Shown here: one piece after another, positions 2 through 7,230 of the stretch
How the letters are laid out: every line of letters begins with the position of its first letter
How positions within the stretch are numbered: position 1 is the stretch's first letter
Assembly: GCA_031082125.1 (NCBI GenBank)
Contig: JAVHLM010000007.1
Span: forward strand, 166,669-230,668
Reading direction: 5' to 3'
Source: Candidatus Eremiobacterota bacterium
GTDB lineage: Bacteria; Vulcanimicrobiota; CADAWZ01; Ess09-12
DNA: 64,000 bases
The notes under the pieces: model-generated
The model's input: only the letters and a program-made list of their open reading frames with translations
The model's database searches: none
What the model was told of the DNA's origin: nothing
Translations under genes and position numbers: made by a program

Positions 2-1504
2 GATTCTCTTATTGAGCCTCAGAAAAGCCTCGCGTTTTCGGAGCACGGCAGCGCAGTGCTCGTTGTTGAGCCTGAAAGCGCCTCATGGACTGTTCTGGAC
101 GAATTCTCCTGCAATGTTTTAAAAGAGCTTGCAGGGGGCCTCTCCTTTGGGGAGCTTGCAGGGCGCCTTGCATCACATGAGCCTGCCGAGGTGAAAGATT
201 TTATCACGGGCCTCTGCCGGCTCAATTTCCTCCGCGTCAATGGACGCACTTTTTACGATCCGAAGGCACTCTGGGAGAGCGGCAGAAAATATCCCCACTT
301 TATTTCCCTCCATGTCACCAACCGCTGCAATTTCTCATGTCTTTACTGCTACAACAGCTCATCGCCTGCGCGCACAGATATGGCGCTTGAAACTTCAAAA
401 TATCTTGTCAAGAGACTCCTTTTTGAGCTGCCACTCCCTTCCCTCACCATAGAGTTCCACGGCGGCGAGCCCCTTCTCGTCTTCGATGAAGTGGTGCTTC
501 CCACGGTGCGTTATGGACAGAGCCTCTCAAAAGCCCTTGGGAAGACGGTGAACTTCCTTATGCAGACAAACGGCTCCCTGATAACCGGCAGAACGGCCAG
601 TCTTCTTGCGCGCCATGATATAAGGGCGGGAATAAGCTGCGACGGCAGCGAGGCGCTCCATAACAGGAACAGGGTCAGGAGCGACGGGAGCGGAACCTAT
701 GAAGCCACCCTCGGAGGGATAGAAAACCTCATTGCCAGGCGCAGGCATGCGGGCACCCTTGCCACCATTGAAAGGCCTGAAGACTATTCCTCGGTGCTCC
801 GCCACGCTCTTTCCCATGACATCCACGATATCTCAATCCGCCCCGTTTATCCCATGGGACGGGCGAAAGCCCGGGGAGGGATAAGGCCCGAAAACGCCCC
901 CTCTTTTGCCGAGGGATTCCTGGAGGCAGCCGACCTTGTGAAAGAAATCAACAGGGGATCCACCCCCTTCGAGGCTGAAGAGAGGCCTGTCAAAAAGAGA
1001 ATGGTCTTCAGGAACCTCTGCACTTACCTGGATCTCCTGACCTCGAAGGAAAGGGCCGACATGTGCTACCGCAGCCCATGCGGGGCGGGGAACAGCATAA
1101 TTGCCTTTGATACCGATGGCGGTATTTACCCATGCGAGGAGATGACAGGCATTGAGTCCTTCAGGATGGGAAATGTCTATGACAGGGGAGACCTTTCAGC
1201 CATCATCACCGGCTCTTCCCCTTACCAGGTACTCAATGAGCGCAGGGTGGAGAGCCTCAAGAGCTGCGGCCGGTGCAAATGGATGCGCCTGTGCGGCGGA
1301 GGGTGCATCTCAAAGATAGCCGCCAGCGGAGGAGATCCTGAACATGGCGACTATTACTGCGGCTTTCACAAGGTGGTCCTTGAAGAGCTTGCCCTCAGGA
1401 TTTCTTCTGATCCGTCGCTGGTTCAGGACCTCCTGGGTACGGAGTCCCCGGAGAGAAAGCCTGTTTACAGCTCCCTGTGGAGGCTTTCCCTTGGGCCTCG
1501 ATAG
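2..1504 (+). CDS. Radical SAM/SPASM protein, 5' end outside window
   Basis: Likely iron-sulfur radical-SAM enzyme that modifies a peptide or protein. The frame is open to the left edge, so the true start probably lies outside; the first internal start is GTG at 56. Numbering from that GTG, residues about 1-75 form a PqqD/RRE-like region (P-E-S-A-S-W, then F-L-R-V-N-G), and the cluster motif CNFSCLYC follows with Cys 91, 95 and 98. HGGEP is the GGE-type SAM-contact motif. The C-terminal SPASM region starts at CGAG, continues with YPCEE and CGRCKWMRLCGGGC, and ends with a last Cys at YYCGF; it should bind auxiliary Fe-S clusters. The fold is that of anaerobic sulfatase-maturase and RiPP-maturase relatives; the substrate is unknown. 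Its end overlaps the opposite-strand relative by 110 nt. Confidence 0.85.
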   Translation, partial: DSLIEPQKSLAFSEHGSAVLVVEPESASWTVLDEFSCNVLKELAGGLSFGELAGRLASHEPAEVKDFITGLCRLNFLRVNGRTFYDPKALWESGRKYPHFISLHVTNRCNFSCLYCYNSSSPARTDMALETSKYLVKRLLFELPLPSLTIEFHGGEPLLVFDEVVLPTVRYGQSLSKALGKTVNFLMQTNGSLITGRTASLLARHDIRAGISCDGSEALHNRNRVRSDGSGTYEATLGGIENLIARRRHAGTLATIERPEDYSSVLRHALSHDIHDISIRPVYPMGRAKARGGIRPENAPSFAEGFLEAADLVKEINRGSTPFEAEERPVKKRMVFRNLCTYLDLLTSKERADMCYRSPCGAGNSIIAFDTDGGIYPCEEMTGIESFRMGNVYDRGDLSAIITGSSPYQVLNERRVESLKSCGRCKWMRLCGGGCISKIAASGGDPEHGDYYCGFHKVVLEELALRISSDPSLVQDLLGTESPERKPVYSSLWRLSLGPR

Positions 1505-3962
1505 ATGGTACCGCTGCCGGAATGACTCTCATGCTCAGCTCTTCCATCATATGCCTGGTGAATCCGCAGGCAGGATAAGGATCGCCGGGGGCGCGCCTGT
1601 GCTCCCGGCAGACTACCGGGCATTCGCCGGGGCACAAAGCCCTCCAGAAGCATTTTCTGCACCTTGCAGGGCCTGCGGTGCCGCTGCCGAGGATTTTTTC
1701 AAGGGTCCTTGAAGCTCTTCTCTCCGGCGAGGCCTTGGACCTGACGGGTCCGCAGTTGAACTCTTCGCGGCCCATCATCCTTGGGCAGGGGAAAAGATCC
1801 CCTTTCACCGAGAAGGCCAGGCGGTGGGACCCTGCACCGCAGGGACGGCAGGAACAGGGGCTCCCCCTCCTTTTATTCCTGTGGCGGTCTGCGAGGAGAT
1901 CCTCAAAGTTCATCACCGTGGGAGCGCCTGGGGCTCCCTTCCCGCCGGGGCTGTAAAGGGCTTCAAAAATTCTCACATATGCCTTGAGCCATTCATCGAC
2001 GCTCATAAAGTCGCCATGGTTGATGCAAGGCTCAAAACGGAGCGCCGAAGCTCCTGTGCTCCTGAAGCTCCTGAGCTTTTTCAGCGCTGCTGCCGGAGTT
2101 TCTGCGGCTATCGTGAGAATCACGGGGATACCCAGGCCCGAGATCCTTTTTATCAGCTCCGGATCGGGATCGTTTCCCTCCCTTATATGGATTTCAAGGC
2201 TGGCGGAGTGCTCTCTCAAGAGGCCCAGAATCCCTTCATTGAGAGGCAGCTCTTTTACCAGGAGCCTCACCCTGCTCTCCCCTGCCTGTGAAAAGGCGAA
2301 ATTCCCCAATTCCCTGAAGAAAATGCTCAGCCATTCCTCCAGAGTGCCATCATTCTTCTCAAAGATAAGCTCTAATCTCTTCTCCATTCCGCGGTAATGG
2401 ACTTCAAGAGCCTTCAGGATATGGCGGAGAGTTTTTTCACCCATGCGGTTCATATGTTCATCCAGGGCCAGCAGCGAGCATTCTATGAACCTCTTTTCCT
2501 CGGGGGGCTCAGGGAGTGCCTCGTTCCAGAAGCAGATTCCGTTCACCTCGATTATCCCCTCAATGTAGAGGCTCCTGACGAGATTCTCGGCCTTTTCCCT
2601 CCCGAGCCATTCGTGGTCCCTGCAGAAATCGTCAAAATAGCAGGGCTCAGCGAGGCTTCTCACCATGTAGCAGAGGGAGAGCGGTGCGAGATGAAATGAG
2701 GCGCTCTGAGGGTGAAGGATGAGGACCCTGTTCCGCTTCCTGCGGAACATTGCCTCCGGTGAGAGCCAGAGCAGCAGATTCTGGTTGAAATCAAGGATAT
2801 CCCCTTTCCCGCGCCTTTGCATTCCGTGGGGCTGTTCATCGCCTGCGGGCCTCACCCTTGCTGCGGCGAAAGAAAGGAAGCCTCTCAGGTAAAGGGAAAA
2901 GACTTTTCTTAAAGAGGCTTCGCCGTGAATCAAGGCAATTTCCCGCAGGGCAGGCCTCTTGAAAAGAAAGCGGAAGAGGGCTTCATCCCCGGGGAGAATA
3001 GGGAAGGAGTCTTTTTCAAACACAAGCAAGCGGTAATCAAGACCCTTCCTCAGCTCATAGCGCGGCACCGCTTCAAGACATTCATCCATCTGGATAGGCA
3101 GGGTGAGCTCGTTTTCCCGCGACAATGCAGAGTAGTCGGGAAAGCCTGAGATAGTGCAGTGTTTCCTGCTGCGCCAGGCTTTCACCGCCTCTGTATCGTA
3201 AAAACTGTGGAGAGGAGCTTCCAGGATATTTCCCACGGGCGTTTCTGCGTGCTCACAGGGATAGACTCCTCCATCGGAGGTGATAAAGCAGCAGGTAATG
3301 CCTGCACCGCAGCTGCCGGGATATCCCCTGGATGCACCGAAAGGCATGCAGCCGGCAAAAGAGAGAGGCCACCCCTCCTGTGCAAGGGAGCGGAGCCTTG
3401 CTGCCATCGTTCTCTGCAGCTCCGCTCCCCGTGCCTTCTCACCGCTGAAGTTGTGAGGCCGGCGCTCCAGCACGGCAGTTTCCGCACCGCATTCACAGGC
3501 GGCCTCCAGGATCTCTTCAAGGTACTTCTCGGTGCTCTCCCTGAGGGGAATAAGGGCCTTCACCGGCAATCCCATGGAGCGTGCCTGCCTTATCGTGCCG
3601 AAGAGCTCAAGCCTTGTGAAAAAGCTCACATCCCGTTCATCACAGGGAATAATGCGCTCGTCAAAACCTGATATGGCGAGCGCCTCAAGCATCGGGATCC
3701 CGGAGGCTTTCCTGAGAAACCATCCTGGGTCGGACCAGGAGCCTTCAGTCCTTATGATGAAGGGTATGTCCAGGCCTGTGATTTCATCAAGAAGAGGCCG
3801 GTTCTCCCTGCGGGAAGGATCGCTCCATCTGAAGGTAATCTCTTTCACATAAGGCCTGATGTGCTTTCTGAACTTCGGCAGGAATGCCAGGAGCCTTTTT
3901 TCTCCCGGAGAATCAAGATCCACCTCGCAGTGAAGAAAAGACATGGGCAGTTCAATGGCCAT
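1395..3962 (-). CDS. Double-module SPASM protein lacking the radical-SAM cysteines
   Basis: An 855-residue protein built from two degenerate copies of the same architecture as the facing radical-SAM gene. Module 1 has a barrel-like region (about 1-200), a short SPASM-like stretch (C218-GAG, then C224/C225 and YPC at 236) and a PqqD-like segment (about 300-368). Module 2 has a second PqqD/RRE-like segment (about 411-478; P-Q-S-A-S-F, later I-E-V-N-G), a barrel-like region without CxxxCxxC, and a complete SPASM region (CGAG at 708, FPC at 726, CRKC at 768-771, C777, C781, C785, C799). It aligns with the facing enzyme through the SPASM region. I infer a pseudoenzyme partner, scaffold or electron carrier. 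The C-terminal tail after about residue 815 is read from antisense of the neighbour. It could instead be a decaying duplicate, but the intact 2.5-kb frame argues against this. Confidence 0.75.
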   Translation of the reverse strand: MAIELPMSFLHCEVDLDSPGEKRLLAFLPKFRKHIRPYVKEITFRWSDPSRRENRPLLDEITGLDIPFIIRTEGSWSDPGWFLRKASGIPMLEALAISGFDERIIPCDERDVSFFTRLELFGTIRQARSMGLPVKALIPLRESTEKYLEEILEAACECGAETAVLERRPHNFSGEKARGAELQRTMAARLRSLAQEGWPLSFAGCMPFGASRGYPGSCGAGITCCFITSDGGVYPCEHAETPVGNILEAPLHSFYDTEAVKAWRSRKHCTISGFPDYSALSRENELTLPIQMDECLEAVPRYELRKGLDYRLLVFEKDSFPILPGDEALFRFLFKRPALREIALIHGEASLRKVFSLYLRGFLSFAAARVRPAGDEQPHGMQRRGKGDILDFNQNLLLWLSPEAMFRRKRNRVLILHPQSASFHLAPLSLCYMVRSLAEPCYFDDFCRDHEWLGREKAENLVRSLYIEGIIEVNGICFWNEALPEPPEEKRFIECSLLALDEHMNRMGEKTLRHILKALEVHYRGMEKRLELIFEKNDGTLEEWLSIFFRELGNFAFSQAGESRVRLLVKELPLNEGILGLLREHSASLEIHIREGNDPDPELIKRISGLGIPVILTIAAETPAAALKKLRSFRSTGASALRFEPCINHGDFMSVDEWLKAYVRIFEALYSPGGKGAPGAPTVMNFEDLLADRHRNKRRGSPCSCRPCGAGSHRLAFSVKGDLFPCPRMMGREEFNCGPVRSKASPERRASRTLEKILGSGTAGPARCRKCFWRALCPGECPVVCREHRRAPGDPYPACGFTRHMMEELSMRVIPAAVPSIEAQGKASTGSCKQAFSPGTPYPGGPEPATDQKKS

Positions 3963-5829: not shown

Positions 5830-7230
5830 TCACCGCCCCGGGGATCTCTGCATGCCGCTGGTGCCGTAGCTGCGGCAGCGTGAAGGAACCGCCCTTTCCT
5901 TGGAGAGCCTGTACACGGCGAGGCGCTGGAGCTCACTCAGGGAGAGCCCCCTCCTTTTCAGGTAATCATCGGGCTCGGCGAGGAAAAGGAGCCTCTCATC
6001 TCCTTTCCTTATCACTGAAAGGGCCTTCTGCACATTCCCGTCATCCAGGAAGTCTTCTCTCCTGTTCCTGTAGACGTTGCCGAAGTGCCTGGCCACGAGG
6101 TCTCTCTCCTCATCGGCCGTGGTATTCATGGGAATGGAGTGGGGCTTTGAAGGGTGCCGCGGGGGCTTCCTTTCAAGAAGCCCCAGAAAACAGTGGGGAT
6201 AGGGCGAAAAGAGATCCTTTGTCATGCCGTAGGCAGTGGTAGGGCACCCGCGGCAGTGCATGTAGAAGGCGCAGGCTCCGCATCCCTTGTAATACTGGGG
6301 GCGCCTGAATCTCTTGAGGAGCTCCGACTCAAGAAAGATCTCTGAAAAGGTCTGCTCGGGCATTTTCCCCGCCACGGAGGGAGCCCTCCTGCAGGCCATC
6401 ACGGTGCCGTCGCTGATGACCGCTATGCTGGTCCACCCGCAGAGGCATCCTGATACGACGGGGAGCTCCTCGGGGGCGAAGGGATAGAAGAGATACTCCT
6501 CGTATCGTATCATCCTGAAAAGCGTGGTCTTTTCAAAGATCCGCTTCCTGCACCCGGCCTCCTTGAAGGCTTTTTTCTCTCTCCTGTAAAGGGCCAGGAG
6601 CTCTCTGAGCTCATCGCGGCCCAGGCTCTCCTTCAGCGATCCTGCATTTCCGGTGCAGGCGCCTATGTCAAAGTTGAAGACACTCGCGCCGGTCGTGGTC
6701 ACGACATGCCTGAAGAGGGGGATAAACTGATCCTTGTTATAGGGATAGAGAGTAAACATGATATGGACGGGGATCCCGCAGGCCTTGAGTTTTTCTATTG
6801 CCTCGACGGTCCTCCTGAAGCTTCCGGGAGAGCGGACGTGATCGTGGACCTCTTCGAGGCCGTCAAGGCTCATCTGGTAGCCCACCACTTCCATCTTTCT
6901 CAGGAACTCAAGGTTCTCATCGGTGAGGTGCTCAGGGTTGCCGAATATGAAGATCCTTTTTCCATGGGCCCTCAGCTCCCTGAAAAAAGCCATCCACTCG
7001 GGGTGGAGAAAGGGGTCTCCCCCTGTGATGTACATGGTGGGTATCTGGGCCTTCCAGGTCCGCTCAAAGCTTATTATGCTTTCCAGGCAGCGCAGCAGCT
7101 CTGCAAGATCAAGCTCATTCTCAACCTCGGAGGCATAGGTGGCGCCCTCGTGCACGTAGCAGTGCCGGCAGTTATTGCCGCACCGCGGCGTAATATGCCA
7201 CTGAACAGTAAGCAGGCGAATCCAGTCCAT
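5830..7230 (-). CDS. Radical SAM/SPASM protein with C-terminal extension
   Basis: A 466-residue radical-SAM protein. The motif CGNNCRHC gives cluster ligands Cys 17, 21 and 24 close to the N-terminus, and ITGGDP is the GGE-like motif. A SPASM-type cysteine set follows (CLCGW, then MACRRAP, CGACAFYMHCRGC and a final PHC). After about residue 350 comes an extension of about 115 residues including F-L-A-E-P-D-D-Y-L and L-S-E-L-Q, which faintly resembles LigA-like small domains found in some RiPP precursors; that resemblance is my impression only. GGAG lies 8 nt before the ATG. The substrate is unknown. Unlike the SPASM gene at the left edge it has no N-terminal PqqD-like domain. Neighbours suggest a peptide- or protein-modification locus. 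Confidence 0.82.
   Translation of the reverse strand: MDWIRLLTVQWHITPRCGNNCRHCYVHEGATYASEVENELDLAELLRCLESIISFERTWKAQIPTMYITGGDPFLHPEWMAFFRELRAHGKRIFIFGNPEHLTDENLEFLRKMEVVGYQMSLDGLEEVHDHVRSPGSFRRTVEAIEKLKACGIPVHIMFTLYPYNKDQFIPLFRHVVTTTGASVFNFDIGACTGNAGSLKESLGRDELRELLALYRREKKAFKEAGCRKRIFEKTTLFRMIRYEEYLFYPFAPEELPVVSGCLCGWTSIAVISDGTVMACRRAPSVAGKMPEQTFSEIFLESELLKRFRRPQYYKGCGACAFYMHCRGCPTTAYGMTKDLFSPYPHCFLGLLERKPPRHPSKPHSIPMNTTADEERDLVARHFGNVYRNRREDFLDDGNVQKALSVIRKGDERLLFLAEPDDYLKRRGLSLSELQRLAVYRLSKERAVPSRCRSYGTSGMQRSPGR

Follow-up and report, generated by a model that had tools for sequence, protein, structure and literature searches.

Our comparison of profile matches, alignments and predicted structures points to a probable division of labour between two convergent genes of a Candidatus Eremiobacterota bacterium, one encoding an intact radical S-adenosylmethionine (SAM) enzyme, P0002, and the other an 855-residue protein, P0001, that combines the remains of two such enzymes. 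Both lie in the window, the stretch of 64,000 nucleotides analysed here, which is part of contig C7 in a 7.43-Mb draft genome (G000). We give slightly better than even odds, about 0.52, to the reading in which P0002 cross-links the tryptophan repeats of a protein encoded just upstream of it and P0001 acts as its non-catalytic, substrate-binding iron–sulfur (Fe–S) partner, a partnership and a chemistry that we infer from homology, motif retention and gene arrangement. The original prediction, made from the letters of this DNA, had likewise proposed an enzyme with a non-catalytic partner; this is still the best supported reading, and pairs of active and dead enzymes recur elsewhere, with physical contact between the two proteins presumed from sequence.

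Domain architecture of P0002 and P0001

As had been noticed at the outset, P0002 carries CxxxCxxC and the full set of SPASM cysteines, and in alignments the GGEP motif is present as well. It scores above the cut-off of the radical SAM superfamily profile (PF04055, 39.1 bits against 29.5), and its best match in the PDB is CteB, an RRE–radical SAM–SPASM enzyme (5wgg, residues 2-419, phmmer E 2.5e-31). P0002 is best read as a putative peptide- or protein-modifying radical SAM maturase, whose predicted substrate is the product of the repeat gene ending 3 nt ahead of it.

P0001 is an unbroken frame of 855 codons in which, by alignment, the expected position of CxxxCxxC is empty in both halves, just as the original prediction held. 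Profile searches with the full protein detected no radical SAM domain (no PF04055 match) and found SPASM twice, at residues 218-267 (PF13186, 35 bits) and 708-786 (TIGR04085, 58.7 bits, cut-off 27). We compared its relatives module by module, as an alignment of the whole protein left module 1 unaligned to them. Residues 30-367 match end to end a type of maturase that has a PqqD-like C-terminal domain and adjoins HTN-repeat proteins (HTN-type enzymes; hhalign 99.5%, E 9.5e-23), and the protein from residue ~396 onward matches the P0002 family (hhalign 99.6%, E about 5e-24). Judged by these homologies, P0001 is a fusion of two different maturase types, with domains ordered radical SAM–SPASM–RRE and then RRE–radical SAM–SPASM and the RRE-like domains back to back in mid-protein. 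The proposed double module of one and the same architecture gives way to this fusion, and internal duplication of a single module is ruled out, the halves matching different families in opposite domain order. The second module had also been said to align closely with P0002; at about 20-23% identity this was overstated, although the profile comparison is unambiguous.

The two halves have lost their catalytic motifs to different extents. Module 1 is without CxxxCxxC and GGEP, and its SPASM domain is reduced to the early cysteines; in module 2 a deletion has removed the CxxxCxxC stretch and GGEP is likewise gone, with eight of eight SPASM cysteine positions retained. Both of the SPASM-like regions foreseen are detected by profiles, with the complete set of cysteines in the second. 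Of the two PqqD/RRE-like segments foreseen, the second stands, and the first owes its assignment to homology with the C-terminal domain of HTN-type enzymes (hhalign 94.9%), resting weakly on comparison with the second and matching N-terminal RREs at 52.6% (E 1.4e-4).

Structure prediction of P0001 by itself was informative for module 2. The full-length AlphaFold2 model is poor (mean predicted local distance difference test score, pLDDT, 56.6), and module 1 was therefore not read from structure; RRE-like domain 2 is predicted at pLDDT about 82-95. Modelled alone, module 2 (pLDDT 66.5) is predicted to form an RRE, a beta/alpha barrel of low to moderate confidence and a SPASM domain, and Foldseek matches this model to TigE, CteB, anSME and SuiB and, weakly, to the RRE of TbiB1; the alignment feeding these models includes active homologs, which biases the fold toward theirs. 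We count the matches to TigE, CteB and anSME, together with the homology of each half to a distinct maturase type, in favour of P0001 as a partner protein. That P0001 performs redox chemistry of its own through a non-canonical cluster is hardly credible: a complete SPASM set and scattered further cysteines persist, but the cluster ligands and GGEP are absent from both halves and no radical SAM profile matches.

Recurrence of active and dead maturase pairs

Of 149 genomes of the phylum, 14 contain members of this family according to a model of P0002 relatives. Counted manually, the loci of this family comprise 14 tandem pairs, the convergent pair of the window and four single members, of which two lie at the end of a contig. 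Our tree and motif comparison cover 12 pairs, some of which are close relatives. In this tree the members cluster according to whether they come first or second in the pair, with 2 changes each against ~8 in shuffles. The C-terminal half of P0001 would go back to the "first" member of an ancient pair of tandem paralogs, whose second member would carry out the radical chemistry; its N-terminal half would be a dead copy of the other maturase type. The second member retains CxxxCxxC and GGEP in 12/12 pairs, and the first is without both in 4/12, which takes at least three state changes on the tree. These dead first members are P0001 module 2, L035 3195-4640, L037 1709-3166 and L069 9068-10438, three of the four belonging to this genome. 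Three of them, P0001 included, retain the full eight SPASM cysteine positions at ~20% identity; the partner at L035 3195-4640 has lost three of the positions, its RRE-like N-terminus being still alignable. Active and dead enzymes are found side by side on two further contigs of the same genome, C23 and C41, and in another Eremiobacterota genome. The expected co-occurrence in other genomes thus holds for the kind of pair and not for the 855-residue fusion, of which no full-length relative was found among the phylum genomes searched.

These comparisons bear on whether P0001 is maintained at all. A decaying pseudogene of former maturases would account for the loss of both catalytic centres, the unusual fusion and the missing fused relative, but it sits poorly with 855 intact codons, with the undiminished SPASM cysteines of module 2 and with a first partner in another genome that shows the same dead state. 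G+C content at codon positions 1/2/3 is alike in P0001 (0.57/0.47/0.64) and P0002 (0.56/0.47/0.64), a pattern as for maintained coding sequence. We consider decay highly improbable.

The conserved cysteines also invite another reading, in which P0001 is chiefly an electron carrier whose second SPASM clusters exchange electrons with P0002 and whose RRE-like domains merely dock. SPASM cysteines are exactly what the dead partners conserve, and the radical cluster of PapB needs intermolecular electron transfer to regain its active state (PMC10470005). We nevertheless think this unlikely, given that the dead partner on C23 has lost SPASM cysteine positions and kept an alignable RRE-like N-terminus, and that module 1 of P0001 has lost most of its SPASM domain too.

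Relatives of module 1 are intact at L034 and L033 and have lost CxxxCxxC but kept GGEP at L029 and L030, and each adjoins a gene with HTN, HSN or WSN repeats. On contig C17 of the same genome, the HTN-repeat gene and the intact copy that follows it occupy L034:6778-9358; related loci occur in genomes G004, G013 and G046, CxxxCxxC being lost and GGEP kept in G013 and G046. A conserved 454-residue protein of no known family (L029:5966-7330 and L030:1-278) adjoins the dead HTN-type enzyme.

The HTN-type descent of module 1, together with an active HTN-type enzyme and repeat gene on C17, leaves room for a different partner: P0001 might serve that enzyme or the radical SAM/SPASM protein P0003, its position opposite P0002 being incidental. 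P0001 is not in the P0002 operon and shares its strand with P0003, at a distance of 1.9 kb. We judge this rather improbable, as module 2 stems from the very family of P0002, whose members occur as neighbouring pairs.

Several observations weigh against our preferred reading, the pairing of P0001 with P0002. First partners show a modest excess of losses (4/12 against 0/12; Fisher one-sided p 0.047, two-sided 0.093), P0002 is not firmly placed among the second partners in the tree, and the dead partners are long-branched. P0001 is convergent with P0002 and not co-transcribed with it like the members of tandem pairs, and the fused form is present in one genome only. Beside most other tandem pairs, the dead L069 pair among them, no obvious repeat precursor is seen.

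HxsC/HxsC4-like proteins adjoin the pairs on C23 and C41, scoring far under the cut-offs of the HxsC models (268-500). Directly after the maturase pair at L127 come ~13 copies of a 30-bp repeat (L127:3489-3876), whose coding strand and frame are undecidable. Our literature search, of partial coverage, found no relevant paper on radical SAM pseudoenzymes.

The tryptophan-repeat gene and its surroundings

The candidate substrate is encoded by a gene that has a Shine–Dalgarno-like GGAG and ends in TAG 3 nt before the ATG of P0002 (Table 1). The product has a hydrophobic N-terminal segment, and its W-x-x-[N/D] repeats are accompanied by a Gly-Ser tail. Asparagine or aspartate stands at +3 for 15 of the 17 tryptophans, against a shuffle mean of 3.7 and with none of 10,000 shuffles as high. 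Profile searches returned no family match for the protein, the SbtA family included, and Rfam none for the gene; W-x-[GA]-N-W repeats occur nowhere else in the genome. Six-frame scans of the examined loci for peptides rich in cysteine or selenocysteine, rich in tryptophan or bearing aromatic-x-N/D motifs picked out nothing beyond this gene and the repeat proteins of contigs C23 and C22, the remaining matches looking like wrong-frame translations. On C23, GxxxG-rich membrane proteins lie downstream of the dead/active pair (L035:6247-9221), and one of them ends in WSN, WSD, YSD and HSN repeats, an arrangement that speaks for aromatic-x-N/D repeats as the family's substrates. The C22 peptide (L041:12600-12917), a His/Trp/Tyr repeat with weak likeness to HxsA4 (26.9 bits, cut-off 55), adjoins a radical SAM enzyme.

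Two TGA codons in identical context interrupt the Gly-Ser tail. The genome encodes selenocysteine tRNA (tRNA-Sec) and SelB (382.8 bits), and the hairpins after both TGA codons are no stronger than shuffled sequence (z 0.36 and 0.35). Read-through of TGA would fit the tight coupling of the repeat gene to P0002; a plain alternative is a stop codon duplicated inside the repeat. As a widespread signal the Gly-Ser TGA context is rejected, the two sites of this gene being its only matches genome-wide. Two SelB-like proteins score above the cut-off in G000 (C6:170366-172246 and C8:16892-18754), one of them adjoining tRNA-Sec.

Among the neighbouring genes, P0003 comes closest to the ACGX system (TIGR04340, 235.6 bits) and SbtM (TIGR04082, 156.5 bits); with a cut-off of 400 for TIGR04340, membership of the ACGX system is rejected. 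An ACGX/SbtM-like radical SAM protein close to a P0002-type gene is seen in two genomes (window 5830-7230 and L032:9550-10638), a relative of P0003 being the direct neighbour of a P0002-type gene in G002:C245. The genome as a whole has an unusually large radical SAM repertoire, with 126 Radical_SAM domain matches.

Table 1. Coordinates of the genes and domains discussed, in window positions unless a locus (L009) is named.
Feature	Position	Strand or placement	Description
P0002	1..1504	+	Active RRE–radical SAM–SPASM maturase; ATG 46 nt left of window (L009:14623); 3' end shares 110 bp (1395-1504) with that of P0001
CxxxCxxC of P0002 (C91, C95, C98)	326..349	+	Seen in alignment
SPASM domain of P0002	1064..1360	+	Every cysteine present; profile search and alignment
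P0001	1395..3962	-	855-residue fusion of two radical SAM/SPASM-derived modules, each without CxxxCxxC and GGEP
Module 2 SPASM (residues 703-800)	1563..1856	-	Eight of eight conserved cysteine positions retained; TIGR04085, 58.7 bits
Module 2 barrel (residues 492-670)	1953..2489	-	Stretch holding CxxxCxxC in relatives deleted
RRE-like domain 2 (residues 396-473)	2544..2777	-	N-terminal part of module 2; hhalign 98.1%
P0001 module 1 (residues 1-375)	2838..3962	-	Dead radical SAM–SPASM–RRE, of the type adjoining HTN-repeat proteins
RRE-like domain 1 (residues 290-367)	2862..3095	-	C-terminal part of module 1
Module 1 SPASM remnant (residues 205-267)	3162..3350	-	Early cysteines remain; CxxC...C..C part lost
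P0003	5830..7230	-	Radical SAM/SPASM protein, most like the SbtM and ACGX-system families; may be an additional component
W-x-x-[N/D] repeat gene	L009:13825-14619 (window -844 to -50, outside window)	5' of P0002	Two in-frame TGA codons
Transglutaminase-like protein	L009:12752-13753	Same strand as repeat gene, just upstream	PF01841, 72.7 bits

Proposed mechanism and comparison with known systems

We suggest that P0002 would most likely join each tryptophan to the asparagine or aspartate three residues on, in the manner of dynobactin, in which a C–C bond links Trp(i) to Asn(i+3) (PMC11002830). P0001 would be unable to bind the SAM-cleaving cluster; its RRE-like domains would hold the precursor, and its complete second SPASM domain would contribute auxiliary Fe–S clusters. 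More speculatively, and with considerable doubt, we posit that two different dead maturases have been fused into a dedicated carrier with two RREs that presents a Trp-repeat selenoprotein precursor to a single active radical SAM enzyme. This carrier would stand at the far end of a recurrent tendency of maturase pairs, one member dropping the radical chemistry and keeping Fe–S and binding functions. If the proposed partnership is correct, labour within maturase pairs comes to be divided in evolution, the defining cluster being lost time and again from one partner that still keeps the auxiliary Fe–S domain. Such proteins would be mutants supplied by nature, in which the generation of radicals is set apart from the binding of the precursor and the function of auxiliary clusters, a question still open for SPASM enzymes, and W-x-x-[N/D] would be a new kind of repeat substrate for the radical SAM repertoire, from a little-studied phylum.

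Family membership was judged by profile scores, and P0002 matches many NCBIfam peptide maturase models, all of them under the cut-off. The best is PapB (NF047865, 162.9 bits), whose cut-off of 340 excludes P0002 from that family; like PapB and CteB, ranthipeptide maturases, P0002 has the order RRE–radical SAM–SPASM, and CteB is its best PDB match. Thioether formation is not expected in the Trp-repeat region, because the region is without cysteines. The bond formed by DynA has the spacing of the repeats seen here; of the Trp-Asn/Asp cyclophane systems (triceptides, dynobactin), in which a C–C bond joins the aromatic residue to the N/D side chain, the present locus displays the motif. P0002 falls outside the DynA family (NF041298, 124.2 bits, cut-off 450), and we know of no paired dead partner of DynA. 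The Hxs system, in which HxsA occurs with HxsB/HxsC, resembles the present locus in its repeat protein substrates and in the HxsB score of P0002 (TIGR03978, 161.6-161.9 bits); membership is rejected at a cut-off of 370, the repeats are W-x-x-[N/D] and not His-Xaa-Ser, and the neighbourhood of P0002 has no HxsC.

Two known arrangements concern the pair as such. In GeoRSP loci, to which the original prediction had likened this one, an active radical SAM protein stands beside a SPASM protein without the radical SAM cluster; the comparison fails as membership, with P0001 reaching 22.7 bits over ~50 residues against a TIGR04304 cut-off of 300 and adding RRE-like domains and a second module. In thuricin CD biosynthesis, TrnC and TrnD, radical SAM proteins that have SPASM or Twitch domains, work together as a complex. 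Binding of the leader is the main task that the authors' model assigns to TrnD; its radical SAM cysteines can be replaced with slight loss, TrnA still being fully modified, whereas those of TrnC cannot, and the auxiliary-cluster cysteines matter, every double mutant being inactive (PMC12093266). The substrate there is a sactipeptide and here looks like a repeat protein, and TrnD has an intact CxxxCxxC and cleaves SAM, whereas P0001 has lost the motif in the course of evolution and unites two modules in one chain. Thuricin CD is the model on which we draw for P0001 and P0002, a pair of radical SAM proteins in which the cluster of one is dispensable and that protein serves mainly to bind the leader.

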